Source of the DNA: a virus
Length of the DNA: 45,835 nt
IMG/VR virus record: IMGVR_UViG_3300037229_000053
Coordinates: 1-45,835 of that record
Strand: one strand, 5' to 3'
Shown one piece after another: positions 2,262-29,073 of the stretch (the stretch's first letter is position 1; every line of letters starts with the position of its first letter). The notes beneath the pieces are model-generated. The model was not told the origin of the DNA. It saw only the letters and a program-made list of their open reading frames with translations, and did no database searches. Made by a program: the position numbers and the translations under genes.

Positions 2262-2814
2262 ATCCGGGCAGCTTGCCAATGCCAGCGCAGGCCGGAACCT
2301 CTCGAACAGTTTGGAAGCCAACGGTGCGAACGTTCTGGGCTCTCTGACGCCGGCGCTGTCGGCGGCGGCCTACGCGCCCTCTGGCTACACGCCGGGGCAG
2401 AAAGCGATGATCGACACAGCCTCGCAGCAATCCGCCGGAGGCACAAACGCGGGCGCGGTGGGCTCAGGAGGCTTGTACGCGGCGCGCACGCGGAATGCCG
2501 GGGCGGCGGGCACGGCCATCGGCTCATCGTCGCGCGCGGCCGGTGCGGGGTTGTCGAAAGCGGCGACGGGGACAGAAGTCAAGAGCGCTGACCTGGCACA
2601 GAAGAACCGTGAGGTGGCGCTGGGAGGCCTCGGCAGTATCGGCAGCGAGCAGACGGGGGCGGGAATCGGCGCGCTGAATTCGTCAAATCAGGCGCTGGCT
2701 GGAGCGGATCAGAGCGCAGCGAACAATCCGTTGATGAAGTTGCTGATGCAGGGTGTGCAGAGCGGCGGTCAGGTGGCTGGGCAATACCTGCAGGGGGGCT
2801 ACGCAAATGGGTAG
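2245..2814 (+). CDS. Ala/Gly-rich internal virion (ejection) protein candidate, 189 aa
   Basis: Strikingly low-complexity: Ala, Gly, Ser and Asn dominate the whole length, with amphipathic helical segments near 30-60 and 120-175 and no Cys. Small, Ala/Gly-rich helical proteins directly after the tail nozzle gene are typical of the ejected internal proteins of podoviruses (T7 gp14 or P22 gp7 type). The sequence alone does not prove this. It begins inside the end of the GNAT-like gene, ends just before an antisense homing endonuclease, and is followed beyond it by two more Ala/Gly-rich candidates. Confidence 0.65.
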   Translation: MPKGVESGQLANASAGRNLSNSLEANGANVLGSLTPALSAAAYAPSGYTPGQKAMIDTASQQSAGGTNAGAVGSGGLYAARTRNAGAAGTAIGSSSRAAGAGLSKAATGTEVKSADLAQKNREVALGGLGSIGSEQTGAGIGALNSSNQALAGADQSAANNPLMKLLMQGVQSGGQVAGQYLQGGYANG

Positions 2815-2827
2815 CACCGGCAACCTC

Positions 2828-3370
2828 CTAAATACGAGCAAATTCTCCGTGAAGCCGCAAAACTGCTATGCGCCTAGCGTCCGCGGCTTGCTCTTTGGTC
2901 TTAAAGAGGCCGAGATAATGGATCGTGTAATCCTTAGTTACCTTCGCGGTCCACTTTCCAGTTTTCGGGTGAAACTGGACACCTGTATATCCGCTGGTGT
3001 TCGTTCTCCTCTTACAAGAGTTTTGGACGTTCTGCGCAGGAGTGGCTGGGCGAAGATTCTGGCGCCGATTGTCCAGCGTATCGCCATTTATGTGGTCGCC
3101 TCTTTTGCCGTCGTTGCAAATGAATCCCAGGACGACTCGATGCATTCCTATTCGACGCTGCTGTTTGATTCCGGTTCGGATATTCCGACGCGCGTAGAAC
3201 GTGCGTGTGCATTTGCTGAATTCAGCGAACCACTTCCACTGCGAGAGATTTTCGTAATCCTCGACAGATACCTTAGCAAATTGGCCCTGAGTGAGGGGGA
3301 TGAGGCGATAATCTGGAAGAGGGCAGGTTTCCTGCTGAATCAGGTTCATGGGATGCCGCTCCAACGGCAT
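2828..3370 (-). CDS. HNH-AP2 homing endonuclease, antisense
   Basis: The 180-residue product carries an HNH nuclease motif (MHRVVLG at about 76-82, GDHINGDTLDNRRQNL at 91-106, with His77, Asp92-His93 and two Asn) and a C-terminal AP2 DNA-binding domain (SGYTGVQFHPKTGKW onwards, about 126-170). Together these are typical of free-standing phage homing endonucleases. It is the only minus-strand gene in the structural region, fills the gap between two virion genes almost exactly and is AT-richer than its neighbours, which fits a mobile insertion. A second ATG 21 bases in (MNLIQQETC) is an equally good start: the first ATG lies inside a possible -10 element. Confidence 0.93.
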   Translation of the reverse strand: MPLERHPMNLIQQETCPLPDYRLIPLTQGQFAKVSVEDYENLSQWKWFAEFSKCTRTFYARRNIRTGIKQQRRIGMHRVVLGFICNDGKRGDHINGDTLDNRRQNLRPATPAQNVQNSCKRRTNTSGYTGVQFHPKTGKWTAKVTKDYTIHYLGLFKTKEQAADARRIAVLRLHGEFARI

Positions 3371-3394
3371 AACAGCCTGTCCTTAGTATATCAA
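3366..3394 (-). promoter_or_regulatory. Candidate own promoter of the HNH gene
   Basis: On the minus strand there is a -35-like TTGATA (3394-3389), a 17-base spacer and an extended -10, TG-T-TATGCC (hexamer 3371-3366). If used, transcription would begin near 3359 and favour the internal ATG at 3349. The element sits under the Shine-Dalgarno region of the rightward gene at 3406, so the two could interfere. Called by eye only. Confidence 0.3.
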
Positions 3395-3405
3395 GGAGGT
3401 GCTGC

Positions 3406-4872
3406 ATGAGCACCCCTCCTGTTCTTACCGGGAATCCTATTTTAGACTCGCCGACGCTGAAGGCCACCCTCGCCGCGCAGATGGCCCAGCAGAATGCTCC
3501 ACCGCCGCCAGCCATCCAGATGCCCGCAGGAGGGGCTGCCGCGAGCCCGTCTATCCTTTCCGGCATGCCCTCCATGCCCAGCACGCCACAGCCAGCCGTA
3601 GGCGCGCCGCGCGGTACCGTGGCGGGCGATACGAACGAGCTGGGGCGAAAGTTGAGTACCGGATCGGGGATCTCGCAGATTCACAGCAAGATCGAGGACA
3701 GCGGCTTCGGCCAGAAGCATCCCGTTCTCAGCAAAGTGCTGGGCATCGGCGCGCAGGGCCTGGCAGAACTCGGGGACATTGGGCTGCGTACCGTGGCGCC
3801 GGCGGTCGACCTCGCTATTCCGGGCACATCGCTGCATCACCTGGCGGATGTGCGGGGCGATCAGCGACAGGTTGCCGGGGACGTGGCGAACCAGGAGAAG
3901 GAAGCGCAAGCCGGCGAAGCAAATGCCCGCGCCAACGCGCTCAGTAATCCAGCCGATGAGATCACCCCCTTGGCGACAACGGGAGGCTATGTCGGAGTGA
4001 GCAGGAAAACTGGACAGGCGGACCCCATCACCGTCAACGGCGAGCAGGCGCAACCTCTCGAAAAGCAGGAGCCAATCCAGCATGCCGTTTTGCCTGATGG
4101 TAGCGTAATCGCCATCACGCGCGGAGCGGATGGGAAAGTCGCGGCGGATGAGGTCTACCACGGCGATCCGAAGGTCCAGACGCAAGTCACTACGCTGGAG
4201 ATTGGCGGCAAGCCGCACCAGGTTATCGTGAACAAGGACACCGGCGAGCAGATCAAAGACCTGGGCGAAACAGGCGAAAAGCCGCCTACAGTGAACGTGA
4301 ACGCGGGACAGAATGAGGCCGATAAACAAGCTGCACGGCTGGGCAAGCCCTACGAGGCCATGAACACCGCAGCGAATTCGCAACTCGACAAGATCGACGA
4401 AGCCGTGTCGATGATTCACGGCAATGCGGAAGCGCAGGCCCTTGGAATTCCAAAGACGATGACAGCGCTGGTGTCCGGTCAGGGTTCGGGAGTTCGCATC
4501 ACGCAGGCGGAGTTAAACATGATCGCTCACGCCAGAGGCGTTCAGGGAGACTTCGAGGGCTACATCAATAAGCTCTCTGGCAAAGGACAGTTGACGAAAA
4601 CGCAGCAGGATCAGATCGCTGGCGTGCTGGGCGACGCGAAACAGCGGATTCTCCTGAAGCAGCAGATCGCCAATCAGACCCTCGACACCATCAATGGCGC
4701 ATCTTCACGAGATCAGATCGTGCAGGCCGATCAGCAGGCGCGGAGGCTCTTTGGGCAACTGGAAAAGTTCGGGCGCTATGAGGGAGAAATCCTTCCTTAC
4801 AATGGGAAGCAGATGAAGATTGTAAGGATTTCGGACGACGGAAAGAAGGTCGACCTTGCCCCCGCAGAGTAA
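3406..4872 (+). CDS. Internal virion/ejection protein candidate, 488 aa
   Basis: Starts at an ATG with a perfect AAGGAGGT ribosome site 7 bases upstream. Residues 1-80 are Pro/Met/Ala-rich and probably disordered. Later parts are polar and helical, with a Gly/Asp-rich beta section in the middle (LPDGSVIAITRGADGKVAADEVY) and a C-terminal helical region (about 330-460) rich in Gln, Lys and Ala. No signal peptide, enzyme motif or membrane segment is seen. Position after the nozzle gene and composition suggest a DNA-ejection protein. Its end overlaps the next gene by 17 bases. Confidence 0.65.
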   Translation: MSTPPVLTGNPILDSPTLKATLAAQMAQQNAPPPPAIQMPAGGAAASPSILSGMPSMPSTPQPAVGAPRGTVAGDTNELGRKLSTGSGISQIHSKIEDSGFGQKHPVLSKVLGIGAQGLAELGDIGLRTVAPAVDLAIPGTSLHHLADVRGDQRQVAGDVANQEKEAQAGEANARANALSNPADEITPLATTGGYVGVSRKTGQADPITVNGEQAQPLEKQEPIQHAVLPDGSVIAITRGADGKVAADEVYHGDPKVQTQVTTLEIGGKPHQVIVNKDTGEQIKDLGETGEKPPTVNVNAGQNEADKQAARLGKPYEAMNTAANSQLDKIDEAVSMIHGNAEAQALGIPKTMTALVSGQGSGVRITQAELNMIAHARGVQGDFEGYINKLSGKGQLTKTQQDQIAGVLGDAKQRILLKQQIANQTLDTINGASSRDQIVQADQQARRLFGQLEKFGRYEGEILPYNGKQMKIVRISDDGKKVDLAPAE

Positions 4873-6778
4873 CGCGGTCACAGTGTCGATGGATGACTTG
4901 AATCAGCCGCAGGTGCGGACGGGAACTCGCGCCAGCGCTGCCGGCCCTGCTGCGTACAAAGAGGGCCAGGTTAGTCTTCCGAACCAAGGACAGGTGACGA
5001 CTGTCGACCTGGACGAGCTCTCTCCGAAACAGGCGGAGTCTCCGGTCGATCACTCTTACAGCACCGAACTGATAAAAGAAATACCATGGGCGGCTGGCCA
5101 ATTCGGCAACGGAGCGGCAAGGGGTCTTCTGCACACGGCCACGGCGTTGCCGGCCTACGTAGCTTCAAAGATCGCGCCGAATTCTCCGCAACTCCAGGAG
5201 CGGGAGCGCATGAATGAACCGGAGAACCCGGTACAGAGCATCGGGCATGGAGTGGAGCAGGCTGGAGAATTCATGCTGCCTGGACTTGGAGAGGAAAAGG
5301 CGGTTTCGCTGCTTCCGGAAAAGCTGGCTTCTCTGGGAAGGATCGGCTATCAGGCCCTCACCAGCGGGGGGGTCAACGCAGCGCAAGGGGGAGGATTCGG
5401 AACCGGCGCGGCTGCCGGCGCGTTGATGGGCGCCATGGGTGAAGGAATGCGCGCGGCTGCGCCGGGAATCGCTGAGAAGGCGCTGGGGATGCGCGGAACC
5501 GATCGCGCCTTTGGAAAGACTCCCGGCAGAGCGATTCTGGACGAAACCTCCGGCGTGCGGCCGGAAAGCGTGGCGACGAGCGCGAAAGAGCGCATCGGAC
5601 AGTTGACTCCGGAACTCGAAAATAAGGTGGATGCCGCCAGCGTGCGGCCTAATCCCATTCGAGGATTTCTGCCAGCTCCGTCGCAGGATATTCCTCTGCA
5701 TAGCGCTGGTGGTGACCAAGGGCGGTTATCACAGCCTGTGATTTTTAATCAACCTGATAGGCCGATGCCGCGCGGACTACCTGCCCCGGCACATGACATT
5801 CCGCTAACAGCTAATCCATTTTACGGGGCTCATCCGCCTGACGAGGGATTGGGAGCTGCCGCCATTAACAACAGTAGAGTCGGGGAATCGATGGCAACTC
5901 CTGAGGGAAATCCGAACTATGGATATTCTGACCAATTTCCGTCCGCGGAAGGTAAATGGACTGGAGGCATCCTGCGGCGCGTAGCCGCAGGCGAGCCGGC
6001 CAGCGGTATGGGGCCAGGGCAATATATCGGAGAGATTCCCGGAGAGCGCGGGGGGCCGTCTCAGGTACAAGGCATTTGGAGGCGACAGCAGGCAAGACTC
6101 TCAGGAGCCATTCCGAAGATCAAGCCGTTTATTCCAAAGGCGTCGGCATCCTTGGCTCCGGCGCGCGACATTCTCAGCGAGGCTCTTGGAAAGGCGACAG
6201 CGCAGAACGCCGAGGGACTTCACGGCCAAATAGGAGGCATGCAGGACTTCCTCTCGCGTCGTTTCGGGAATAGAGAGCCGATCCCCGAAAACGTGACGCC
6301 TCGCGATCTTCTGAACCTCAAACGTGGATTCAGCGAGGAGCACCTGGGATGGAATCCGGATCGCCGCGATGCCGCACTTTCTACGGGTCGGAGAGCTTAC
6401 GGGGCTCTCGACAGCGAACTAGACCGCTCCGTCCCTGAGGCGGCTGGTCTGAACCAGCGCATTTCGAGCCTCATTCCAACGGTCCGCCGCGGCGAAGCTA
6501 TGGCCCGAGGTGAAGGCGCTGGGCCCCGGATCATGGAAAGGATCGCCCGCCCCACCGGGGCGCTCACAGGAGCTATCGGAGGTGGAATGCTCGGCTATCG
6601 GCAGGGCGGGGCTACGGGTGCAGCGGAAGGAGCCGGGCTGGGATTGATTCTTCCGGAGTTGATGACTTCCCCGACCGGCAGGATGGCCTTGGCGCGCGCA
6701 CTCAATCGTCCACTGCCTGCATTTGTTCTGCCCGCTATCCGCGGCGGCGCTCTGCAACTGGACAGGGGGAAGAAGTGA
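4856..6778 (+). CDS. Large internal virion/ejection protein candidate, 640 aa
   Basis: The longest frame starts at TTG 4856, with GAAGGT just upstream; GTG 4883 or ATG 4889 (MDDLNQPQV) are alternatives. It contains Gly/Ala-rich, possibly membrane-active segments near 170-200 (GGGFGTGAAAGALMGAMGEG) and 565-600, and a helical region near 430-540. A linker around 260-350 repeats the motif LPAP-x-x-DIPL twice and is clearly AT-richer than the flanks. Such Ala/Gly-rich hydrophobic patches fit proteins that form a channel for DNA ejection in podoviruses. The role is inference from composition and gene order. The stop overlaps the next start (GTGA). Confidence 0.65.
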   Translation: MPPQSNAVTVSMDDLNQPQVRTGTRASAAGPAAYKEGQVSLPNQGQVTTVDLDELSPKQAESPVDHSYSTELIKEIPWAAGQFGNGAARGLLHTATALPAYVASKIAPNSPQLQERERMNEPENPVQSIGHGVEQAGEFMLPGLGEEKAVSLLPEKLASLGRIGYQALTSGGVNAAQGGGFGTGAAAGALMGAMGEGMRAAAPGIAEKALGMRGTDRAFGKTPGRAILDETSGVRPESVATSAKERIGQLTPELENKVDAASVRPNPIRGFLPAPSQDIPLHSAGGDQGRLSQPVIFNQPDRPMPRGLPAPAHDIPLTANPFYGAHPPDEGLGAAAINNSRVGESMATPEGNPNYGYSDQFPSAEGKWTGGILRRVAAGEPASGMGPGQYIGEIPGERGGPSQVQGIWRRQQARLSGAIPKIKPFIPKASASLAPARDILSEALGKATAQNAEGLHGQIGGMQDFLSRRFGNREPIPENVTPRDLLNLKRGFSEEHLGWNPDRRDAALSTGRRAYGALDSELDRSVPEAAGLNQRISSLIPTVRRGEAMARGEGAGPRIMERIARPTGALTGAIGGGMLGYRQGGATGAAEGAGLGLILPELMTSPTGRMALARALNRPLPAFVLPAIRGGALQLDRGKK

Positions 6779-8937
6779 TTCTGATCGGACTGATTTGCCT
6801 GGGCATCGCTTTCTGCTATTGCATCGCAGAAACTTGCTACGAGAGAGATTGGCCTCGGCGTACGGCGCCATACCTGCTTGCCGTTTTGTTCCTGATTGTC
6901 TGCGCCTCCGGATTCGGGCAGGCGTCCCGCTACGATGGCACGGTTTACACGGTGAACCAGTCCGCGCCGCTGCCCGGAGCCATGCTGCCGGTGCTCGCGC
7001 TCTCCGGGGCGACGGTCCAGATTTGCTCAACCTGGAACAGCACCGCATGCACAGGTCTTCTGCAGACCTACCAGAGCGCCACGGTTTCCGGCCCGAATCA
7101 GTGCCCCACCAGCGCGCAGCTCTACAATGCTCTGGCCAGCGCATGCTCCTCGACAGCGGATGTATCCGGAGGATTCGGGATTTGGACCCTTCCTGGAAGC
7201 TATGCGTATTTCGTGACGACAAGCTATGGAACATTCGGTCCCTATCCGTTTGGGGTGGATGCTGCCGGAGCGTACTGCCCGCTCGCGGGGTGCACCTTCA
7301 CCGGGCCCCTCAGCGGTCCCAGTTTCACAGGAAATGTAATTGGTAATTCCTCTGGGAATTTAGAAGCTGCGGGAGAACCTACTTTTGATGTTAGATATTA
7401 CGGTGCGACTGGAAATGGAACAACTAATGATTGTGCTGCAATATCTAATGCTGTAGCTGCATGGAATACAGCCGGGCACGGCAACCTGTTTTTCCCGCAG
7501 GGAATTTATTACGTTGGGGCTTCCTGTCACATGACAGTGACAGCCAGCGGCTTGATGACAGGTGTCGGGTCTTGCGGTGCAGCAGGAGCGCAGGGTACAG
7601 GCATTCCCGCATCCTCGTGTGGTTCCGTTATCAGCAGCGCCGACACGACTGGCATTCTATTTACTGTCACGTCTCAAAATCTGGTCTATCGAGACCTGGG
7701 TTTTATCAATACCGCGACGGTCACAGCAGGCGCAGCCATCTATACGGACGGAGCGAACACGCAGCAGATCGTATCCTGCGATCATTCCAGTTTCTCCTTC
7801 TTTTATGATTCGTTAAAGCAATTTGTCGGCTCCTTCTGGAACGTGAACGCCTGCTACTTTACCGGTGGCGCTCACACGGATATGTGGATTCAGAACATCC
7901 CGAACCAGGACTCCGGCGACTGGGCGATTACTGGCAGTGCTTTCGGATGCGGCGGAAGTGCGCTGGCCTGTCTCTATATGACCGGCACAGGCGGCGGAAA
8001 AATCACCGGCAACAAAATTATCGGAATTGGTACCGCTGATGCCTTCCGCCTGGACTGTACGGGGGTTTCCTGCACAGGAGAACTCACTGTCGTAGGTAAC
8101 GATATTTACACCAACGTCGGCACGGGCATTCCTGTGGACGTCGTAAATGGAAACGGCTATAATTCTGGCACAGTTGACGGCAATACCATTACTACGGGCA
8201 ACAGTGGAATCAGCCCGGTTACGGTGAATAGTGTGGGTGGCTGGTATATCGGCGGGGGCGTCATTGCCAGCACGGATACAGATATTGCGATGGTGAGTGT
8301 CGGAGGCACCAGCGGTGGTGTGATTATCGGCCCCTTTTCTCAAAACATCGCAAATATAGCGCCTGATATACTTTCCTGCACTGGTTGTTTCGATTTCAAT
8401 AGCCTCAGTACCGGGACATTCGCTCCCGCTGCGGCAAACGGAGGGTATTTTGGCGGTCAGGCTACGGACGATCTCGTTATCGTTCCGAATACATCGGGCG
8501 CGCTTATTCTCAAGGATACTTCTGGAAATGGCATTGGCTTGTTACAGGCAACGCAGGACTCGCTATCGACAGATAACTATCTGGTGCCGTTTCAGCTTTC
8601 CGATACTGTCCCGTCTCTTTCGACCGGCCAATGGATCGGCGCTCCTCTGGTATCGAGCACGCGAGAGCCGGGTATCTACAGTACAAAAGCTCTGATCACG
8701 TTAACTGACTGGTGGACACACGCGCTGCATTTTGAGGGACTTTCGCCAACTACATTTTATTCAGCCGCTGGAACACCTCTTCCAGCGTGTAGTGCAACTA
8801 CTTTAGGAAAGTTGTGGGTTACAGATGCTACAGTAGCAACTTCAGGTACCACCTACGCTAGTGGTGGTACCTATACAATTGGAGTAGAGTGTATTTTTAA
8901 TTCTGTAGGTAGTACATATACCTGGATTATCAACTAG
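6775..8937 (+). CDS. Pectate-lyase-3-type beta-helix tail spike, 720 aa, with N-terminal membrane/signal segments
   Basis: Residues from about 203 (FDVRYYGATGNGTTNDCAAI, then LFFPQGIYYV) match the start of the Pectate_lyase_3 right-handed beta-helix family, common in phage tail spikes that cleave host surface polysaccharide. The rest is Gly/Asn/Thr-rich beta-helix. Unusually for a spike, the first 50 residues contain two hydrophobic stretches (MILIGLICLGIAF and YLLAVLFLIVCASGFG), the second ending like a signal peptide. Several Cys occur in close pairs, as in exported proteins with disulfides. GTG start overlaps the preceding stop. GC falls in the last third, suggesting separate ancestry. Confidence 0.85.
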   Translation: MILIGLICLGIAFCYCIAETCYERDWPRRTAPYLLAVLFLIVCASGFGQASRYDGTVYTVNQSAPLPGAMLPVLALSGATVQICSTWNSTACTGLLQTYQSATVSGPNQCPTSAQLYNALASACSSTADVSGGFGIWTLPGSYAYFVTTSYGTFGPYPFGVDAAGAYCPLAGCTFTGPLSGPSFTGNVIGNSSGNLEAAGEPTFDVRYYGATGNGTTNDCAAISNAVAAWNTAGHGNLFFPQGIYYVGASCHMTVTASGLMTGVGSCGAAGAQGTGIPASSCGSVISSADTTGILFTVTSQNLVYRDLGFINTATVTAGAAIYTDGANTQQIVSCDHSSFSFFYDSLKQFVGSFWNVNACYFTGGAHTDMWIQNIPNQDSGDWAITGSAFGCGGSALACLYMTGTGGGKITGNKIIGIGTADAFRLDCTGVSCTGELTVVGNDIYTNVGTGIPVDVVNGNGYNSGTVDGNTITTGNSGISPVTVNSVGGWYIGGGVIASTDTDIAMVSVGGTSGGVIIGPFSQNIANIAPDILSCTGCFDFNSLSTGTFAPAAANGGYFGGQATDDLVIVPNTSGALILKDTSGNGIGLLQATQDSLSTDNYLVPFQLSDTVPSLSTGQWIGAPLVSSTREPGIYSTKALITLTDWWTHALHFEGLSPTTFYSAAGTPLPACSATTLGKLWVTDATVATSGTTYASGGTYTIGVECIFNSVGSTYTWIIN

Positions 8938-8966
8938 GGATGGTTTACGCATAAAAGGGGGACGAT

Positions 8967-9248
8967 ATGAAAAAGATACTCGGGCTGTTACTCATTCTCG
9001 CCGGTACGTTTGCTTCTGCTCAGAGCCCGCAGACGCAGACCGCGCCGATCTATCCTGTCAATGCGAAGTATACGAATGGTGTTGCGCCAGGTTACGCGGA
9101 TTTGCGCTTTCTACAACGGAGTAGCAGACTTTTGTGTCACCGACAGCAGCATCCTCAGCGGCTATCCCGGTATGGCTGTGGTTTTGTCCAGTGCCACCGG
9201 CGTGTCATCGTTCACGGAAACGACCTGGTAATTTTCGTGAAAGGATAA
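8967..9248 (+). CDS. Small signal-peptide protein, probably frameshifted remnant
   Basis: Starts with a good ribosome site (AAAGGGGG) and a clean signal peptide (MKKILGLLLILAGTFASAQ). The frame reads sensibly to about residue 45 (NAKYTNGVAPGYA), then becomes Arg/His/Gln-rich like a shifted frame. From about 9105 another frame reads FYNGVADFCVTDSSILSGYP and then MAVVLSSATG, ending in TAA at 9231, which looks far more protein-like. A single-base indel near 9100-9115 would join the two into about 88 residues. It may be a broken or internally deleted fibre gene, a sequencing error or, less likely, programmed frameshifting. Confidence 0.5.
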   Translation: MKKILGLLLILAGTFASAQSPQTQTAPIYPVNAKYTNGVAPGYADLRFLQRSSRLLCHRQQHPQRLSRYGCGFVQCHRRVIVHGNDLVIFVKG

Positions 9249-9251
9249 CCA

Positions 9252-9365
9252 ATGAGCATCGAAATCCTCCAGATAGTCCTTACTACCTTTGCTGTACTGA
9301 TGGGTTGCTGCGCCTGTATTTTCCCGTTCGTCTACATAAGATATTGTACCCCAAAAAAACATTGA
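9252..9365 (+). CDS. Small membrane protein, 37 aa
   Basis: ATG with GGATAACC just upstream. The predicted peptide has one transmembrane span (IVLTTFAVLMGCCACIFPFV) and a short basic tail ending KKH. It sits between the signal-peptide remnant and the SGNH fibre gene. It could be a lysis or membrane accessory peptide, but nothing beyond the hydrophobic span supports a function. Its stop region overlaps a candidate promoter for the next gene. Confidence 0.4.
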   Translation: MSIEILQIVLTTFAVLMGCCACIFPFVYIRYCTPKKH

Positions 9366-9388
9366 CATTCATGACCACGATTTAATAA
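9362..9388 (+). promoter_or_regulatory. Candidate promoter upstream of the SGNH fibre gene
   Basis: A perfect -35 TTGACA (9362-9367) is followed by an AT-rich stretch with TAATAA at 9383-9388 (15-base spacer) or TAATTA at 9386-9391 (18-base spacer). This is the most AT-rich spot in the region, 40 bases before the ATG at 9429. It could drive the fibre and lysis cluster. Spacing is not ideal, hence moderate confidence. Confidence 0.4.
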
Positions 9389-9428
9389 TTACCTGTCTGT
9401 TGGTCGATGTCTCCAAACTGAGGCGCAC

Positions 9429-11645
9429 ATGAAGAAGTTACTCTGGATTTTCCTGTTGGCGGCTCCGCTGGGAGCGCAGACGCTGACCAGTCCGCCCCCG
9501 GCGTCTCTCGGTTACTGCTACTACGCCGCCGGGAAAGAGTTCCTGCCCATCGCTGGCGGGAGCGGGGGCAGTATCGTCCTGACGAATCCTCCACCGGCCT
9601 CGCTGATCTTCGGCAACTACGCGGCCGGACCGAATTACCAGCCGCTCCAGTGCGACTCGGGCGGGAACCTGATTATTTCCGGTGGGTCCAGCGCGCTGGT
9701 GGTGGGGACGACCCCCATTACCAGCGGCACGGTCGGACAGACGCTCTACGACAACAATGGAGTTCTGGGGTCGGGCGGCAACGCGGCCACAGCCACAGCG
9801 CTGGCAGCTACCCCGGCGCAATGTCCTGCGGGACAGGTGGCAACTGGTGTTACTGCTGCTGGCGTGGCAAACTGCGCCTCGGCTTTCACGGCCCTTACCG
9901 GCGATGCAATGAGCACGTCTACCGGCGGCGCTACGACGGTCCAGGGCCTGAAGAACGTCCCATTCTGCACCGGCTACACGCCAACCAACGGGCAGGCTGT
10001 GACGCTGACGACGGCGAGCAGCCCGAATCCTTGCTATACGGCGGTGGCCGGTTCGCCTGCATCTCTGACTCCCTATGGCAGTATCTATTCAAACAATAAC
10101 TTCTCGTCGCTGTCTCCATTTACCGTGAACGGAGCTACGGCAGCTACCGAAGCAGCGGGCAGCGGTAGTTGTCCGGCAGGAACGAATTCCTGCATCCAGA
10201 TCAGCGCAGGAGCGGGCAACTTCGCGGAAAGTGTGGATTACACCTATCAGACAACCTTGCCTATCTGGACTGTCAGCATGACGCAGGTTGCCGGGACAAA
10301 GAGCAGCAGCAGTTACGGGCTGGGCCTCGGAATTCGTTCTAACGCCCAACTTTCAACGAGCGTATCGGCGCAGTACTCCGTCGTGGCGCAAATTGATACT
10401 TCTTCCGGCGCTTCCGCTGGAACAGTGAGCTTGGCGGCGTGGTCGGGAGGGAATGTCACTCAGATAGTTGCGTCGGGTACAAAACTGACGATTACCGCTG
10501 GCGATTCGCTGCTTTTTACAGTTACTCGCATTTACGACACGATATATTTCACAGGGCAGGACGTGACCTCCGCCGCAACTCCTGTGACTGTGAGTTATAC
10601 GTTTCCCTTTAGCTACAGTCCCAACGGACCTTATCTCCCGAACGAGGGAAGATTTTCCATCTTTAGCGTCGGTGGGACCCAGACCGTCACTTCACTGTCG
10701 ATCAGTTCAGGTGTTCCGCTGGGTACCGATGTGATGTGTCTCGGAGACTCCAAGACGATAGGCCAATATGCCGGTTCCTACTCTGCGGGCTGGTGCGAGC
10801 AACTGACACCTTACTATCGGAGCTTTCCGCTGTCAGGCGGCTATGATACCTCGGCGGACATCATCTCCAACATGCCGGAGATTCTGGCGCTAAAACCAAA
10901 GGCCGCGATCATTATGATCGGCGGCAACGATCTTGGTAACAGCATCAGTCTGCCCACGGTTGAAGCCAATATAACCACCATCGTCTCAGATTTGGCGGCA
11001 GCGGGAATAACACCCTATTGCGCCACCTATCCCCTCCAGAACGCTGGAGCGAATGTAACATCTCTTAACACATGGATTCTGGCGAATTGCACATCCTTTA
11101 ACGCCAACCCTCCCGGTATGGTGAGCGGCTCAGTGTGGGCCACATGGATCGCCCCCGACAACGTGCATCCGGTCGCACCATGGCATAACTACATCGCTCA
11201 ACAGGCATTAGCCTTTCTTCAGGCGCAAGGGCTACCTCAGCAGCAACCGGGAAATATCGCCATCAAGGTCCAGGGCGGAACGATTCCGGTGCAGGCATTT
11301 GGCGTGATCCAGGGCGGAACGATAAACACGGCGACAAACTGCTCCAGTTCAGCGTCTCCTGCGATATGCGGATCGGCTGCGGCAGGAAGTGTCGCCCTAC
11401 CGACGAATGCTGTCTCCAGTTCCATAGTGGTCAACACGACAGCAGTCACAGCCAACAGCCAGATTCTGGTGACGACGGACGATACTCTCGGAACGAAGCT
11501 GGGCGTCACCTGCAATTCTACGGTGGCTACTTTGGTAGGAGGATTGACGATTTCGGCGAGGACGGCTGGGACCTCGTTCACGATTGCTAACAATGTCGCT
11601 GTTGTGACGAACCCGCTTTGTGTCTCCTACTTGGTGATCAACTGA
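9429..11645 (+). CDS. Fibre/depolymerase with SGNH (GDSL-type) hydrolase domain, 738 aa
   Basis: Begins with a signal peptide (MKKLLWIFLLAAPLGAQ) and a Gly/Thr/Ala-rich fibre-like N-terminal half (about 20-240). A beta-rich, possibly carbohydrate-binding part precedes the hydrolase domain from about 430. SGNH blocks are visible: CLGDSKTIG with Ser441 as nucleophile, GGND with Asn500, and DNVHPV with Asp577 and His580. Such domains deacetylate or de-esterify polysaccharides. The C-terminal 110 residues resemble trimeric fibre tips. Together this suggests a virion-borne esterase acting on acetylated host exopolysaccharide. The signal peptide is unexpected for a virion protein assembled in the cytoplasm. 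Confidence 0.85.
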   Translation: MKKLLWIFLLAAPLGAQTLTSPPPASLGYCYYAAGKEFLPIAGGSGGSIVLTNPPPASLIFGNYAAGPNYQPLQCDSGGNLIISGGSSALVVGTTPITSGTVGQTLYDNNGVLGSGGNAATATALAATPAQCPAGQVATGVTAAGVANCASAFTALTGDAMSTSTGGATTVQGLKNVPFCTGYTPTNGQAVTLTTASSPNPCYTAVAGSPASLTPYGSIYSNNNFSSLSPFTVNGATAATEAAGSGSCPAGTNSCIQISAGAGNFAESVDYTYQTTLPIWTVSMTQVAGTKSSSSYGLGLGIRSNAQLSTSVSAQYSVVAQIDTSSGASAGTVSLAAWSGGNVTQIVASGTKLTITAGDSLLFTVTRIYDTIYFTGQDVTSAATPVTVSYTFPFSYSPNGPYLPNEGRFSIFSVGGTQTVTSLSISSGVPLGTDVMCLGDSKTIGQYAGSYSAGWCEQLTPYYRSFPLSGGYDTSADIISNMPEILALKPKAAIIMIGGNDLGNSISLPTVEANITTIVSDLAAAGITPYCATYPLQNAGANVTSLNTWILANCTSFNANPPGMVSGSVWATWIAPDNVHPVAPWHNYIAQQALAFLQAQGLPQQQPGNIAIKVQGGTIPVQAFGVIQGGTINTATNCSSSASPAICGSAAAGSVALPTNAVSSSIVVNTTAVTANSQILVTTDDTLGTKLGVTCNSTVATLVGGLTISARTAGTSFTIANNVAVVTNPLCVSYLVIN

Positions 11646-11670
11646 TGAGCGACCACGGAGAGCGGAACTA

Positions 11671-11787
11671 ATGTCTAGGGAACTCGTCGCACTCATCGTG
11701 AGGCATGGTGAGACCCCGCAGGCGGCGGCGGCGGTTAACATTGCCATCGCTGGCTGGTTCGGTGTGCATCTTAACAGAGCCTACTGA
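11671..11787 (+). CDS. Hypothetical small protein, 38 aa
   Basis: ATG preceded by GGAGAGCGGAA, with a plausible ribosome site. The peptide starts MSRELVALIVRHGETPQAAA and has a mildly hydrophobic middle (AAVNIAIAGWFGVHL). No family recognised. It lies between the SGNH fibre and the small membrane proteins of the probable lysis cluster. It could equally be a non-coding spacer. Confidence 0.35.
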   Translation: MSRELVALIVRHGETPQAAAAVNIAIAGWFGVHLNRAY

Positions 11788-11823
11788 GCAGCGCCAGCGA
11801 GAAGGACGATCAAGCGAGGCCAG

Positions 11824-12033
11824 ATGACCGATGAGGAATGCCTGCGGAGGATCGAGAGGGATTTGTATTTCGGCAACGGCAAGCCCGCGCTGACCATCCG
11901 TATAGAGGTGACGGAGGAAAAAGTGGATACGATCAACCGTAACCTCAGCAAGCTGGTCTGGCTGGTGCTCGGCACTCTGGTATCGTCTTTGGGCGCTTTG
12001 GCGCTGGCCGTGGTCGCGCATTTTCTGAAATGA
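11824..12033 (+). CDS. Small tail-anchored membrane protein, holin/XhlA-like candidate, 69 aa
   Basis: The N-terminal half is charged and helical (about residues 1-45), ending in a single C-terminal transmembrane span (LVWLVLGTLVSSLGALALAVVAHF). This layout of a short coiled region followed by one C-terminal span resembles XhlA-type holin accessory proteins. It is the first of three consecutive small membrane proteins upstream of the cell-wall enzyme at 17735. Function is inference from topology and position. Confidence 0.65.
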   Translation: MTDEECLRRIERDLYFGNGKPALTIRIEVTEEKVDTINRNLSKLVWLVLGTLVSSLGALALAVVAHFLK

Positions 12034-12043
12034 AAGGAATCTC

Positions 12044-12397
12044 ATGAGCACGTTCATCCCGGCACCTCCGGTTCCTCCACCGACCCTCGCCGACCTGCAG
12101 GCAGAGATCGAAGCAATGAAAGCCCAGCAGAACGCACCGAAAGCGGCGGGTATCTGGAGCACCGTTCTCACTCACTGGAAAAGCACCGCGAACGGCGTGC
12201 TGGCCCTGGGGATCACGGTAGGGCTTGCATTGCTGGCGACCGGCAGTACGCTGCTGACGCCGAAGATGACGACCTACATCACCCTCGGCCTCGCTGTGGC
12301 CCGTGCCATCACCGGGGCGATGTCGAAGGACGCCTCGGCTCTCACGGCGGCGGACATCCAGAAGCAGACGGCGGTGGCGACCGCCAAACAGGCGTGA
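12044..12397 (+). CDS. Small membrane protein, holin candidate, 117 aa
   Basis: ATG with AAGGAATCTC upstream. A Pro-rich N-terminus and short helix (ADLQAEIEAMKAQQ) lead to a hydrophobic region from about 50 to 95 (NGVLALGITVGLALLATG, then a second weaker stretch TTYITLGLAVARAITGAM) and an Ala/Lys-rich tail. One or two membrane spans fit a holin. No family is recognised with certainty. It lies in a run of membrane-protein genes. Confidence 0.65.
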   Translation: MSTFIPAPPVPPPTLADLQAEIEAMKAQQNAPKAAGIWSTVLTHWKSTANGVLALGITVGLALLATGSTLLTPKMTTYITLGLAVARAITGAMSKDASALTAADIQKQTAVATAKQA

Positions 12398-12409
12398 GAA
12401 AATAGGACC

Positions 12410-12712
12410 GTGAGCGTCTGGACCATAGACAGCCTGAAGGAGCACCTGGAGGCGATGCGGGAGGCCCAGCACCGGGAACTCTCCAATGCTATTTTCAGCG
12501 TAGAGAACACCGCGAAGGCAGCGCTGGACTCCTCGAAAGAAGCTGTACTGAAAGCGGAGAACGCAACAGAGAAGCGGTTTGAGGGAGTGAACGAGTTCCG
12601 CGCCACGCTCACGGATCAGGCGGCGCGCTTCGTGACTCGCAAAGAGATGTGGGGGTACATCGCCGCTGGCATTGCCACCATCGCGGCGATTGTCGAGATG
12701 CTCCGAAAATGA
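12410..12712 (+). CDS. Coiled-coil protein with C-terminal membrane span, 100 aa
   Basis: GTG start. Residues 8-75 form a long charged helix or coiled coil (EHLEAMREAQHRELSNAIFS, then repeated Glu/Lys/Ala), followed by a C-terminal transmembrane stretch (MWGYIAAGIATIAAIVEML) and a basic end. The inverse of a classic spanin layout; it may be a holin partner or a membrane-tethered scaffold. The function is not known from sequence. Confidence 0.65.
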   Translation: MSVWTIDSLKEHLEAMREAQHRELSNAIFSVENTAKAALDSSKEAVLKAENATEKRFEGVNEFRATLTDQAARFVTRKEMWGYIAAGIATIAAIVEMLRK

Positions 12713-12766
12713 TCGGTGAGTACAGGGAACGTTTGGAGTAGAATTTCGGCAAACGAAAGGAACCGC

Positions 12767-13291
12767 ATGAACATCACTCGCCGCAAGTTTTCGCTGGGCG
12801 CACTCAGCATGACGCTTCTGGCCGCCGTCGGCTGCAAGGTCGTCACCGCAATCTTCAGCCCCTCCACACTGGCCGGGCTTGTCTCCGAAGTCGGTTCAGG
12901 CGTTGTCGCGCTCCTCACCTTTCTCGGCAAGACCGCGCTCGCCCAGCAGGTGCAGGCGGATATTGCCACGGCGGTGAGCGCCATCACGAGCTGGACGCCG
13001 GGGACTGTTGCCACCGATGTGGAGAACGCGCTGAACGATGTGGCGGCGTTCATCTCGACGATTCCGGGCCTTCAGGCGTACAGTGCGCTGATTTCGCTGG
13101 CCGTGGGCACGATTGACTACATCATCAGCCTCTTCGTCCAGAATTCTCCGGCGGCGCCTGCCGGGGCGATCCGTCCGCGCACCGTGCTGCCTGTTTCGCT
13201 GCCGAATCCTCCGACCAAATCGAGCCAGTTTGCCAGCCAGTGGAACGCGAAGTGCAAGGCGCTGAATCTGGAAACTGTTGAGATCCAGTGA
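12767..13291 (+). CDS. Putative twin-arginine lipoprotein, 174 aa
   Basis: The ATG at 12767 is chosen over an upstream GTG (12716) because GAAAGGA lies just before it and the protein then starts with MNITRRKFSLGALS and TLLAAVGC: a twin-arginine motif (Thr-Arg-Arg-Lys-Phe), a hydrophobic core and a lipobox-like Ala-Val-Gly-Cys23. The mature part is helical and hydrophobic in places (VALLTFLGKTALAQQ, and ALISLAVGTIDYIISLFV), ending in a polar tail. This predicts export and lipid anchoring. Lysis, superinfection exclusion or host-surface change are all possible; none is proven. Confidence 0.7.
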   Translation: MNITRRKFSLGALSMTLLAAVGCKVVTAIFSPSTLAGLVSEVGSGVVALLTFLGKTALAQQVQADIATAVSAITSWTPGTVATDVENALNDVAAFISTIPGLQAYSALISLAVGTIDYIISLFVQNSPAAPAGAIRPRTVLPVSLPNPPTKSSQFASQWNAKCKALNLETVEIQ

Positions 13292-13386
13292 GAGCGTGGC
13301 TCATCGCAGGCGGCTCAGTGGGAGCGGTGGTGATCGCGGTCCTGCTGTTGCTGCGGTGGCTCGCCAACCCGAGGAATTACCGCTGA
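13288..13386 (+). CDS. Single-span membrane peptide, 32 aa
   Basis: GTG start overlaps the preceding stop (GTGA). The peptide is one transmembrane helix (LIAGGSVGAVVIAVLLLL) followed by RWLANPRNYR, a positive C-terminal end. The overlap with the lipoprotein gene suggests translational coupling. Short single-span peptides like this are typical of phage lysis or membrane accessory genes. Coding is likely but not proven. Confidence 0.45.
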   Translation: MRAWLIAGGSVGAVVIAVLLLLRWLANPRNYR

Positions 13387-13399
13387 AAGGTCGCATCGC

Positions 13400-16300
13400 A
13401 TGAAACGCATTCGCCTGCTCCTGTTCTGCCTCGCCGCCGGCCTTTTGGTCGGCGTTGCTTCTGCCCAGCGCGCGGGGTCTACCGCAAGTCTTTCGTGCAG
13501 CCCCAGCAGCTTCACCGCGGCCGGAACGACGACGTGCACCGTCACCCTCAACAGCAACACCGCGACCGTCGTTACGCTGAAAAGCAATAATTCGGCGGTT
13601 CAGGCGACGCCCGCCTCCGTCACCGTAGCGGCGGGCGGGAAGACAGCGGTCTTCACTGTCACCGTCCCGGCGGTCACCACGGCCACCACAGTCACCCTGA
13701 CGGCCTCCCTGACCACTTCAGCGACCTCCACGCTCACCCTTTCACCGGGGACCGCCCTGACCTACATCCTGACCGCCACACCCGCTTCGATAGCCTTCGG
13801 GGATGTCACGGTAGGGCAGAAAGCCTCGAGTACGGTCACCCTGAAGAACGCTGGAACCGGGACCCTTGCGATTTCGGCTGTGACCCCCTCCGCCGGCTTC
13901 ACTGAATCCGGCGGGACCGGGACTCTGGCACCGGGGGCTTCTGCGACCGCGACGGTCAACTGGGGACCGGGCGGGGCTGGGCCGGTGAGCGGCACTCTGA
14001 CGGTGACCTCGAACGCGGCCGCGCTGTCCATCCCAATCACCGGGGACGGGGTCGCGGTTGCGCCGCCTCCGGTCGTCACCGTAAGCAAGCTCACAGCGCC
14101 CTCCAGTGCCTATACAGGGCCTGCCAGCGTCCCGATGACCGTAACCCTTACCTCCGCCCCCACGGTCGCCACCACGGTCAGCCTGACATCCAGCAGCCCC
14201 TCTGTGGCCGTTCCAGCCAGCATCAGCATCCCAGGTGGCTCCATCAGTGAGGGTTTCACGGCCAGCGCCGGTGCCGTTACTGTGGCCACCCCTGCCGTCC
14301 TGTCTGCCTCGCTGAACGGCACGACGGTGACCGACACCCTGACCGACAACCCAGCGGCTGCCGGGGGATGTGGAGCTTTTGCGCCCGTCGACGTGTTTTT
14401 GAACATGGACGGGCCCGCGCCGGGAACGACCGTCTCTACAGCCAATTTGGATTCCGCGACGGAAGGAGTCGGCGTCAGTTGGTCCACCGCGACCAGCCAG
14501 GAGACATTTGCCGCCAGCCAGGTCGCCCTCCCCGGTTCGATCAGCATCAAGGGCTTGTCTACGCATCCGTGCGGTTACGCCACCCAGGCCCTGGCAGTCA
14601 ATGAGGCGGCTTCGATGCCCACCTCGGAGATTGACTTTCCTGCGGGTCACACGCAGGTTGTCGTGCAGGGGTGGCTCGTCGATCTGCCGCCGGACGCCGG
14701 CGGAGCTGGGGACCTGTTCGACAACGTTGTCACGGTCGGCGCAAACGTCAATGCCGGGGGGGTGGTCCAGATTCAGCCGGGCTCGGGCCTGACGTGCGGA
14801 GCCTATGGCCTCGAACTGGAGTCCTACAGCGGCAACGGCGGCACGACCCACAGCCCGTGTATCGCGGTGACGCCAGGGAGCACGATTTTCTACTCGCATT
14901 ACATGAACTTTGGTTCGAGCGGTCCCAGCTGCCTGACGGTATCGCCGCCATGCGAAGGGCTGTACGCCTACACCACCAACGGCGCCACCTTTACCCAGAT
15001 CGGGAGCGGAGTAGCGATCAAACTCAACGGAACAGACACGCTGGGGCGGTCGCTCGTCGGCAACAATGAAAACGCTACGGAAAGCGGCAAGCTCGATTTC
15101 CAGAACACGATGTGGGATTACACGAACGCTAAATGGCCCAACCTGCCCACGGCCGTCACCCCTCCGCCCACAACCTACACCCTGACGGTGAGCGAAACCG
15201 GGACCGGCAACGGAACGCTGAGTTGCTCCTCAGGTACGTATCCTGCCGGCACGGTGGGCACCTGCACCGCAACTCCGGCCAGCGGCTCTACGTTTGGAGG
15301 GTGGAGCGGGGCCTGCTCCGGTACAGGAAGCTGCTCGTACACGATCACGGCCAACACAACACTCACAGCAACGTTTACCGCCAACACCGTGACTCCTCCG
15401 CCGACCGGGGCGCTGTGGAGCGGCATCCTGCAGCCGGTGGGCAGCACGTTCGGCGCGGCCAATGTGGCCAACCCCTTCGGCATTCTGTGGCAGGGGAACG
15501 TCGGTTTGCCTGGGGGAGCAACGGCTTTCAGCGACGGTGCCATCCAGTGTGGATCGACTCTTGCGGCTGGCGCGAACCAAAGCACCATCAACGCAGCGCT
15601 GGCGGCTTGCGGTGGGACCGCAGCCCAGCAGAAAAAGGTTGTGCTTGCTGCCGGGACGTTTCCTGTCACGGGGACGATCAAAGTGCCGTCCTGGACCGAA
15701 TTGAGCTGCACGCCGAACGCTGTCTGCATCATTCAATCAAACGCTGGCTCGTACGACACCTGCGAACCCTACACCAGCGGCGACACCTGCGTCGTGGCGC
15801 TCGGTGAGTCCTCGGGCCTCTCCTACAGCCCCGTCTCGATTACCAGCGGCGCAACCGCGGGCTCGACCAGCCTTGGGCTGTCTTCCACATCGGGGATGGC
15901 TGTGGGCGGCCTGCTCGCCATCTCCGAGACAAATGCCTCATGGGTCAGCTCGAACGGAGACGAGGGGTCGTGCAACTGGTGCGACGGCGGCTTTACCTCG
16001 AACGGCAGCCGCGCCAGGGAACAGGTCGTCAGGATCCTGGCGATCTCCGGCAACACGGTTACCATCGCGGCGCCGGGTCTTTACTCGCCCTACACCAATA
16101 CTCCAACCGCGGTCTACTTCACGCCGGCGGTCCAATATGCGGGCCTGAGGGATGTCCAGATCTACGCGGGCAACGTGGGACTGGGAGCAGACGTGGTGAT
16201 TACCAAGTGCGCGTTCTGCTACGTCAAGGGCGTAGAAGGCAATTATGCGGATGGCAACTGGGTCACAGTGTCCGATTCCTACCGCTTCGAGATCAGGGAT

Positions 16301-17452
16301 TCGGATTTCTCCGGTACCTTCGACCACGGGGCCGGGACGTTCGATGGCGACGTTGATCTCAGTGTGAGAGCGACCTTGGGCTTGGTTGAAAACAACATCA
16401 TGCTCCGCGGCCACAATTCGCTGATGGTGCAGTGGGGAGCGAACGGCAACGTCATCGGCTACAACTATGGGTTGAGCGGCTTCGACAACTCCGGCTACAA
16501 CTCAACCTACGGCGGCTTCAACGCGCACGGCGCGGACCCGCAGTTCAACCTGTTCGAGGGTAACGTAATTCCGACGTACAAACTGGACGGCGTGTGGGGC
16601 GGCAGTACGATGAACACCGCGTTCAGGAACTGGATTCAGCAGACCTCGGACGTTTGCACGCCCTACCAGACCAACGGCAGAGTCGCGGTGACCACGCCCT
16701 GCTTCCAAAGCCCCTACCAGGACGTAGGAGAGCAGCTGGATCATCTGAGCGTCTACAGCATCTCGGTCGCCAACGTGATTGGCTCAGCGCAGCAAATTGC
16801 GCTGAAAGAGACGGACGCGGTGCTCGCGGCGTGGCCTGCCAGCCGCAATATGTTCGGCTCCCTGGGGTGGGGTTACACTTTTGGCTACGGAGACGATGCG
16901 GACGATGGCTCAGGCAACGGGTGCGATGGCGGGACGAACTGCCAGAGCGCTTCTCCTTACGCCACGTCGTTCATCTACAACGATTACCTCGCATCTCCCG
17001 CGACTACGGTCTGCGAGTCGGGTGGCGCAACGGCGTCCTGTCCCGCGACGGCCCCGCCCAGCTTCTACCTCGCAGCCAAACCTGCGTGGTGGGGATCGCT
17101 GCCGTGGCCTGCGAATGGCCCTGACGTGACCGGCGGCACAGGCCCAGCAGGACATGCTTACGGCAATCCTGCCCAGCAGTGTTTCGTGAATGTCATGAAG
17201 GGCACGGATGGCGGGGTGGGGAGTCCGTACGCCTTCAATGAAAACACCTGCTATGGGAGTGCGGCGGCAGCAGCAAGGAAGCGGGCGAGGAAGAAGTGGA
17301 GCACGCCTACCAGTATTTTGGATGTAAGCATGAAATGTCCACTTTGCGGCTTCGTCTGCCGCGCCGGTGATGCGGAGCCGGATTGCGACGGTGACGGCTC
17401 GCTGGGCTGCCCGCAGCCGGACTGCGGCGGGGTTATGGAGATGATCTTGTGA
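13400..17452 (+). CDS. Giant multidomain secreted-type fibre/depolymerase, 1350 aa
   Basis: Signal peptide (MKRIRLLLFCLAAGLLVGVASAQ), Ig-like module about 25-115, choice-of-anchor-D-like module about 117-225 (IAFGDVTVGQKASSTVTLKN), second Ig-like module about 230-320, a lectin or laminin-G-like region about 330-580, a bacterial repeat module about 590-660 (GTCTATPASGSTFGGWSGAC), then a right-handed beta-helix from about 670 to 1290 (VVLAAGTFPVTGTIKV and later Asn/Gly turns). The last 40 residues form an unrelated zinc ribbon (CPLCGFVC, CPQPDCGG) starting at an internal Met. Such module strings are typical of acidobacterial surface proteins. A virion depolymerase or a secreted protein made during infection are both possible. 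Confidence 0.82.
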   Translation: MKRIRLLLFCLAAGLLVGVASAQRAGSTASLSCSPSSFTAAGTTTCTVTLNSNTATVVTLKSNNSAVQATPASVTVAAGGKTAVFTVTVPAVTTATTVTLTASLTTSATSTLTLSPGTALTYILTATPASIAFGDVTVGQKASSTVTLKNAGTGTLAISAVTPSAGFTESGGTGTLAPGASATATVNWGPGGAGPVSGTLTVTSNAAALSIPITGDGVAVAPPPVVTVSKLTAPSSAYTGPASVPMTVTLTSAPTVATTVSLTSSSPSVAVPASISIPGGSISEGFTASAGAVTVATPAVLSASLNGTTVTDTLTDNPAAAGGCGAFAPVDVFLNMDGPAPGTTVSTANLDSATEGVGVSWSTATSQETFAASQVALPGSISIKGLSTHPCGYATQALAVNEAASMPTSEIDFPAGHTQVVVQGWLVDLPPDAGGAGDLFDNVVTVGANVNAGGVVQIQPGSGLTCGAYGLELESYSGNGGTTHSPCIAVTPGSTIFYSHYMNFGSSGPSCLTVSPPCEGLYAYTTNGATFTQIGSGVAIKLNGTDTLGRSLVGNNENATESGKLDFQNTMWDYTNAKWPNLPTAVTPPPTTYTLTVSETGTGNGTLSCSSGTYPAGTVGTCTATPASGSTFGGWSGACSGTGSCSYTITANTTLTATFTANTVTPPPTGALWSGILQPVGSTFGAANVANPFGILWQGNVGLPGGATAFSDGAIQCGSTLAAGANQSTINAALAACGGTAAQQKKVVLAAGTFPVTGTIKVPSWTELSCTPNAVCIIQSNAGSYDTCEPYTSGDTCVVALGESSGLSYSPVSITSGATAGSTSLGLSSTSGMAVGGLLAISETNASWVSSNGDEGSCNWCDGGFTSNGSRAREQVVRILAISGNTVTIAAPGLYSPYTNTPTAVYFTPAVQYAGLRDVQIYAGNVGLGADVVITKCAFCYVKGVEGNYADGNWVTVSDSYRFEIRDSDFSGTFDHGAGTFDGDVDLSVRATLGLVENNIMLRGHNSLMVQWGANGNVIGYNYGLSGFDNSGYNSTYGGFNAHGADPQFNLFEGNVIPTYKLDGVWGGSTMNTAFRNWIQQTSDVCTPYQTNGRVAVTTPCFQSPYQDVGEQLDHLSVYSISVANVIGSAQQIALKETDAVLAAWPASRNMFGSLGWGYTFGYGDDADDGSGNGCDGGTNCQSASPYATSFIYNDYLASPATTVCESGGATASCPATAPPSFYLAAKPAWWGSLPWPANGPDVTGGTGPAGHAYGNPAQQCFVNVMKGTDGGVGSPYAFNENTCYGSAAAAARKRARKKWSTPTSILDVSMKCPLCGFVCRAGDAEPDCDGDGSLGCPQPDCGGVMEMIL

Positions 17453-17734: not shown

Positions 17735-18109
17735 ATGACCTGGATCTTCTCCACCACGACAGGCGACCTGACTCAGAACGGAACCGTGATCGGCCACGGC
17801 TTCTCCGGATACGGGACAGGGCTGATGGACCCGGATTTGGAGATGGTGCAGGACGTGGGGCCGATCCCTCGCGGAAGCTGGACCATCGGCCCATTCTTCG
17901 ATGACCCTGAGAAGGGGCCGCTGGTAGCCGATCTGACGCCTTCCCCCGATACCGATGTCTACGGCCGTTCAGGCTTCATGCTGCACGGAGACACAGCCGC
18001 CGATGTGGAGAACGGGACGCAACTCGCCAGCCACGGCTGCATCGTCCTGGCCCGCTCGATCCGCGAGCTGATCGCCGCCAGCGGAGACGCTGAACTCCAG
18101 GTGATCTGA
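17735..18109 (+). CDS. Tlde1/DUF2778-like peptidoglycan L,D-transpeptidase-fold enzyme (putative endolysin), 124 aa
   Basis: The protein has the pattern of the Tlde1 (DUF2778) family: GHGFSGYG, then GPIPRGSWTIGP, then GFMLHGDT with His84, and finally ASHGCIVL with His100 and Cys102, the probable catalytic cysteine. Known members are type VI effectors that cut or exchange peptidoglycan stem peptides in the periplasm. It fills nearly the whole domain length and has no signal peptide, so it would need a holin, and three small membrane proteins lie upstream. It is the only cell-wall enzyme I see, so I infer it is the endolysin. Confidence 0.8.
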   Translation: MTWIFSTTTGDLTQNGTVIGHGFSGYGTGLMDPDLEMVQDVGPIPRGSWTIGPFFDDPEKGPLVADLTPSPDTDVYGRSGFMLHGDTAADVENGTQLASHGCIVLARSIRELIAASGDAELQVI

Positions 18110-28938: not shown

Positions 28939-29073
28939 ATGGACGCTGTTGAAAAGCAGGTAGAGCCTCTGCCTGTTGTTGAAATTCGACGAAACCAAGC
29001 AATAGGCATGCTCATTGTCAGCGTAGTCTGGGCTGCGACTGTATTAGTCGTTATTGCCCTTGCCACTCGATGA
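28939..29073 (+). CDS. Small membrane protein inserted before terminase, 44 aa
   Basis: ATG with GAGGAGAACG upstream. Acidic N-terminus (MDAVEKQVEPLPVVEI), RRNQ, then one membrane span (IGMLIVSVVWAATVLVVIAL). AT-richer than the genes around it. It lies between two copies of a 17-base repeat, and its stop overlaps the terminase start. Likely a recent insertion (moron). Confidence 0.65.
   Translation: MDAVEKQVEPLPVVEIRRNQAIGMLIVSVVWAATVLVVIALATR

Follow-up and report, generated by a model that had tools for sequence, protein, structure and literature searches.

Why would the spikes and fibres of a tailed phage begin with signals for export across the inner membrane of the host? The question is raised by a single IMG/VR virus record, IMGVR_UViG_3300037229_000053, whose whole 45,835 nucleotides are referred to here as the window. 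In the accepted view, the cytoplasm is where a tailed phage folds its spikes and fibres and attaches them. An earlier note on this DNA reported secretion signals at six gene starts of the window, all on the + strand: 6775, 8967, 9429, 12767, 13400 and 32568. The signals proved to be real and unusual, and they are conserved in related phages and prophages of Acidobacteriota. The suggestion that cysteine (Cys) pairs in these proteins fit folding outside the cytoplasm is strongly supported by the Cys density and by the coupling of signal and Cys pair in two unrelated protein families. On the sequence evidence, export of the signal-bearing (tagged) spikes is very probable. The wider reading stands at about an even chance: genuine Sec signal peptides would sit on receptor-binding spikes that are exported, cut, folded in the periplasm and docked on the particle at lysis.

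Signals were judged with our own scorer of the hydrophobic region (h-region) and cleavage site, together with homology and inspection by eye. Eleven known E. coli signal peptides scored from 6.1 to 10.3, and each start was also compared with 500 shuffles, by counting those that scored at least as well. No shuffle matched the starts at 13400 (score 12.4, site ASA/Q), 32568 (10.3, APA/Q) and 8967 (9.6, ASA/Q), while 30 matched the start at 9429 (5.7, LGA/Q). At all four, the scorer predicts a cut before glutamine (Gln), with scores of 5.7–12.4, just as had been described. The start at 12767 scored 8.8, matched by two shuffles, and does have the reported twin-arginine lipoprotein form (TRRKFS followed by the lipobox AVG/C). 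The start at 6775 scored 7.3, matched by 13 shuffles, and its signal-like part is the second of two hydrophobic segments. The features of Sec substrates of signal peptidase I are present (basic n-region, hydrophobic core, small residues at −3 and −1), save that −3 is not small in 9429 and some spikes. The remaining genes of the window scored 3.1 or less, apart from the transmembrane protein at 30707, and the core head, portal and ejection genes carry no signal peptide; relatives and Acidobacteriota prophages show the same division between spike-like and core genes. It is hardly credible that the signals are an artefact of wrong starts or chance hydrophobic N-termini. Some relatives do have a longest open reading frame (ORF) that begins upstream, with the signal at an internal start. 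Nevertheless, the Shine-Dalgarno spacing is good at the window starts, and the shuffles and the 75 tagged homologues of the two families speak for real signals. The P22 tail spike, the tail fibre of Bacteroides phage B124-14 and the fibres of Tunturi_3, taken as control phage proteins, all scored low.

One of the two families provides a natural experiment. The gene at 32568–34211 encodes a fibre-like protein of 547 residues between terminase and portal, with its signal (APA/Q) at 32568–32624 and a Cys pair, C107/C116. Among relatives fetched by terminase, a homologue was found in ten, always with a signal cut before Gln. In their alignment (A2, 10 members, identity down to 31%), M1, K2, L5, L13 and Q20 are invariant. 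Searching with the alignment gave 50 IMG/VR loci and two forms of the protein, one that bears the signal and one whose ORF starts exactly at the mature domain. The latter has its own Shine-Dalgarno-like sequence and no in-frame signal upstream. The Cys pair, which lies in a loop of the first domain, occurs in 33 of 33 distinct signal-bearing rows and in none of the 11 signal-less ones. On a family tree that left out both the signal and the Cys-bearing loop, presence of the signal and of the Cys pair changes in step, with three changes for each trait, at least two of them forced by well-supported branches. Folding of the tagged forms in an oxidising compartment would be expected to produce just such a coming and going of Cys pairs with the signal. 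The coupling is strong as sequence evidence, but it falls short of formal proof, because the Cys-pair criterion was set after looking at the data and the independent events are few. The earlier note would have counted against a signal any homologue that starts downstream of the hydrophobic segment. Such homologues do exist, but they lack the Cys pair, which favours export of the tagged forms.

Close relatives can differ in this respect. The capsid protein of genome G413 is 92% identical to that of the signal-bearing G008, and yet the 32568 homologue of G413 has neither signal nor Cys pair, while its three spikes keep their signals. A genome-wide signal switch was rejected on this ground. At locus L132, tandem copies of the 32568 family (2911–3777 and 3747–4772) were observed, one without and one with a signal peptide.

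The second family is defined by the N-domain of the spike at 6775–8937. This protein of 720 residues and 25 Cys lies in a P22-type tail-spike position, after the ejection-protein-like genes 3406 and 4856, and has weak PHROG tail-spike matches (1e-4). Its two hydrophobic N-terminal segments, noted earlier, were confirmed. The export region (6775–6918) consists of the first segment, an ERDWPRR loop and the second segment, and homologues place the true cut site after the latter, at GFG/QASR. All 11 spikes of alignment A4 share the resulting mature Gln (Q49), and the only other positions invariant among them are M1, C84, C92 and a few structural residues. The N-domain, 68% identical in G001 and 30% in G002, recurs with its signal on spikes of other lengths with unrelated C-terminal parts. 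A conserved N-domain joined to a variable C-terminal part inside the late module is the arrangement expected of a tail spike or receptor-binding protein. A wider search gave 42 signal-bearing and six signal-less forms. Gln at +1 is present in all 42 signal-bearing forms, and so is the Cys pair, which is absent from all six signal-less ones. Among the 42, G412 alone has its two Cys separated by an insertion, and in one prophage with a signal-less form both Cys are gone. When pooled, the two families have the Cys pair in all 75 tagged proteins and in none of the 17 untagged ones; by alignment, each of the 75 tagged proteins also has Gln at +1.

These alignments also bear on the proposal that the hydrophobic ends stay uncleaved and serve as virion-attachment or membrane-anchoring helices. 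The extra first segment and ERDWPR loop, a two-segment form conserved in the window spike, G409 and G413, would suit such a helix. However, conservation falls on the basic start, the small −1 residue and the +1 Gln rather than on the variable hydrophobic core, and some homologues do without the segment and have no Cys pair. Attachment to the virion by the hydrophobic ends, as the earlier note had considered, is disfavoured by the conserved cleavage site and Gln, and an uncleaved helix is improbable.

The excess of Cys is not confined to the conserved pairs. The four spike proteins contain 86 Cys in 3,355 residues (2.56%), compared with 29 in 4,801 residues (0.60%) for 13 core late proteins. 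From such sequences we infer that the exported spikes would form disulfides.

With the large terminase subunit (29070–30728, + strand) as the query for finding relatives and hosts, one of 396 genomes across the phylum matched, a Terriglobia bacterium, and the match lies in a contig that goes on into common bacterial genes, among them those for acetate kinase and phosphoketolase, as identified by eye. Within the same class, 28 of 399 genomes matched at E <= 1e-60, while in the control sets none of 398 Pseudomonadota and none of 296 Bacteroidota genomes matched. As judged from these matches, the hosts are Acidobacteriota. Nine prophage spikes were examined, and in each the signal is followed by Gln and the N-domain. 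Several related Acidobacteriota prophages (L213-L216, L219-L220 and L223) adjoin the same gene, whose product starts MKIALAQFNPTVGDF and was recognised by eye as NAD+ synthetase; this shared neighbour suggests a common integration neighbourhood. In Acidobacteriota themselves, 21 of 58 predicted signals have Gln at +1, or 14 of 34 once proteins with a later transmembrane segment are excluded (36–41%; L226-L245, L075-L113). By prediction, then, +1 Gln is common in Acidobacteriota signal peptides and forms a partial Q-rule outside Bacteroidota. The Q-rule, according to which signal peptidase I cuts before Gln, has been reported as Bacteroidetes-specific (PMC5837995), and the window signals share its cut while lying outside that group. 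One glutaminyl cyclase family (PF05096) occurs in 51 of the 151 host-class genomes searched, but not in all prophage hosts: G286 has it and G1123 lacks it.

Cultured phages of the same phylum show how far the trait extends. Tunturi_2, an unrelated podovirus whose isolation host is Tunturiibacter psychrotolerans X5P2 (PMC11924767), bears signals on gp12, gp13, gp14, gp16 and gp17, with +1 Gln in four of the five (not gp14). The Cys content is 2.09% in its fibres versus 0.50% in its core proteins, the label "virion structural protein" in the Tunturi phages being assigned by prediction. Its gp14 is pectate-lyase-like, and the Pfam beta-helix matches of gp14 and gp17 lie below the curated cut-off. 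Tunturi_2, one of the Tunturi_1/2 viruses, resembles the window phage as a cultured Acidobacteriota podovirus whose fibre and spike proteins have A/Q signals and many Cys. It differs in that no homology to the models of the fibre N-domain and 32568 families could be detected in its proteins; signal peptides are not mentioned in PMC11924767. The fibres of Tunturi_3, a phage of the same host strain, have no signals and 0.54% Cys; those of the siphovirus Tunturi_4 also lack signals. The trait is therefore neither forced by the host nor limited to one lineage, and the signal-less fibres of Tunturi_3 and Tunturi_4 led us to reject the idea that it holds for Acidobacteriota phages in general. In cultured phages, no homologue of the 32568 family was found, and the spike N-domain gave one short weak match only. 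Read from their sequences, the phages of this group are tailed phages of Acidobacteriota from soil whose spikes and fibres carry a cleavable export tag and disulfide-type cysteines.

How might an exported spike become part of a virion? In the proposed mechanism, the infected cell would export the spikes through Sec, past the inner membrane. Signal peptidase I would cleave them so that Gln becomes the first residue; in hosts that possess a cyclase, this Gln may be converted to pyroglutamate. Folding of the spikes, with formation of disulfides, would take place in the periplasm, while the cytoplasm would remain the usual site of assembly for heads and short tails. Holin, endolysin and spanin would then open the envelope, and the folded spikes would dock on the tails. 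Sec export, cleavage before Gln and oxidative folding make up the simplest joint account of the signal, the site, the Gln and the Cys. In nine prophages and G409, the only spike-like late gene found is the tagged spike, which makes this exported protein the most likely receptor-binding protein of the virion; if so, it would have to join the particle once the inner membrane has opened. P22 tail spikes attach to finished spikeless particles in vitro, which makes docking at lysis plausible. The likeness to P22 gp9 includes the late position after the ejection genes, the variable C-terminal part, a presumed virion-binding N-domain and the tail-spike PHROG matches. P22 gp9, by contrast, lacks a signal peptide and contains 8 Cys among its 667 residues, and its head-binding domain is not recognisably homologous to the window spike beyond a weak match to that domain type.

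The chief rival accepts export but removes the spikes from the virion. The tagged proteins would be depolymerases or esterases released by, or displayed on, the infected cell or lysogen, where they could clear capsule, destroy receptors so that progeny avoid debris, or block superinfection. The earlier note had raised display or release of depolymerases, and this remains a live alternative, although an unlikely one. Enzyme-type domains are found in the tagged proteins (GDSL in 9429, pectate-lyase-like in Tunturi_2 gp14). Pantoea WceF is a glycanase with a tail-spike fold that is exported over the inner membrane; it differs from the window spikes as a bacterial gene of an exopolysaccharide operon with a twin-arginine (Tat) signal rather than a phage structural gene (PMC7949094). 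Nixviridae phages of Porphyromonas gingivalis likewise encode several secreted proteins with host-type signals that expose Gln, although these Q-rule genes belong to phages of Bacteroidota, are of unknown function and have not been identified as spikes or fibres (PMC10367356). Against free enzymes, nine prophages, G409 and Tunturi_2 leave no untagged spike candidate that looks apt as receptor-binding protein. The tagged genes also lie within the late morphogenesis module, and untagged homologues occupy the same locus in sister phages.

Several points weigh against virion-bound exported spikes. The signals were judged by our own scorer, homology and eye, and not by SignalP. The N-domain profile (A5) matches the solved tail-spike head-binding domain 7eeq_A weakly (E 0.005, about 32 residues) and CarboxypepD_reg better, and CarboxypepD_reg domains occur in secreted bacterial proteins too. 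AlphaFold models of 32568 (predicted local distance difference test score, pLDDT, 45) and 6775 (pLDDT 42) are too poor to confirm folds and were not used for fold searches. The coupling of signal and Cys pair amounts to two or three independent events in the 32568 family and a small, uncounted number in the N-domain family. We infer both the export and the virion docking of spikes from sequence, and the route of the exported spike to the virion, by docking at lysis, is conjecture.

The other tagged genes of the window add detail. At 8967–9248, the signal (ASA/Q, score 9.6) stands on a broken, frameshifted spike-like remnant of about 93 residues, so the description of 8967 as an intact fibre gene does not hold. 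Coding sense after the signal seems to move to another frame, and the stretch looks like a decayed small spike gene. The gene at 9429–11645 encodes a GDSL-esterase-type spike (PF13472, 1.5e-10) of 738 residues and 16 Cys, with its signal LGA/Q at 9429–9476; its C-terminal 118 residues are 80% identical in a signal-bearing fibre of G413. The twin-arginine lipoprotein-type gene at 12767–13291 lies in the presumed lysis region. No homologue of this hydrophobic protein was found in any fetched relative, and it was set aside as a member of the pattern.

The large spike at 13400–17452 (1350 residues, 37 Cys; PF15780, PF18998) has its signal, ASA/Q, at 13400–13465. ASH/Ig-like and InlB-type repeats follow, and then a region related to a signal-bearing gene of G415 (38% over 116 residues, 24% over 308). 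The repeats are typical of bacterial surface proteins, and here alone the suggestion of recruited host surface-protein genes finds support; elsewhere the tagged genes belong to phage spike families at fixed late-module positions. If host genes or N-termini had been captured and their signals were a leftover without phage function, the signals should decay. They persist instead in many families, at a terminase identity of just 47–80% and nearly always with +1 Gln, and the signal-less 32568 homologue of G413 shows that a close sister may do without the signal, so this explanation is very improbable. A genome scan with 13400 was rejected as host evidence, as it gave merely scattered ASH-domain matches in many phyla. 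The ORF ends (17330–17452) with a zinc-ribbon-like CPLCG...CPQPDCGG, odd on an exported spike and possibly a fused small gene.

The window ends overlap (1–227 and 45609–45835, 227 bp at 98.7% identity), which indicates a near-complete, circularly closed genome in which the first ORF continues the last. Its late module has a P22-like gene order. The terminase small (27246) and large (29070) subunits are followed by 32568, the portal-like 34948, the scaffold-like 37469, the putative capsid 38986, several small connectors and a large conserved tail protein (42997 to the end). Genes 1285 to 4856 come next, including the two ejection-protein-like genes (by position), and the spikes 6775, 9429 and 13400 come last. 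Most late-module proteins had no match in a PHROG search. Two core late genes on the + strand, both without signal, are the portal-like protein (34948–37458, 6 Cys, weak phrog_332) and the putative major capsid protein (38986–40260), which was assigned by position, had no PHROG match and is 99% identical in G001. A Tlde1/YkuD-type domain at 17735–18109, 96% identical in the G001 copy, is perhaps a cell-wall lysis enzyme. As whole-protein queries in IMG/VR, 6775, 9429 and 13400 gave no close relatives, as expected for variable spikes.

In the open-access library searched (most subscription journals lay outside coverage), neither exported tail spikes of tailed phages nor two-compartment virion assembly by tailed double-stranded DNA phages was found to have been described. 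That Acidobacteriota tailed phages let their spikes mature in the periplasm and finish building their virions at lysis, beyond the cytoplasm, in such a two-compartment assembly, is a possibility we rate a little short of even. The common +1 Gln in Acidobacteriota would extend this signal feature beyond the phylum in which the Q-rule was described. The trait has been lost and gained between relatives, and Tunturi_2, which has it, and Tunturi_3, which does not, grow on one host strain, which makes the question directly testable. If the reading is true, part of virion assembly occurs outside the cytoplasm, the usual cytoplasmic expression of such spikes may fail, and the spikes can use disulfides and the envelope chaperones of the host.

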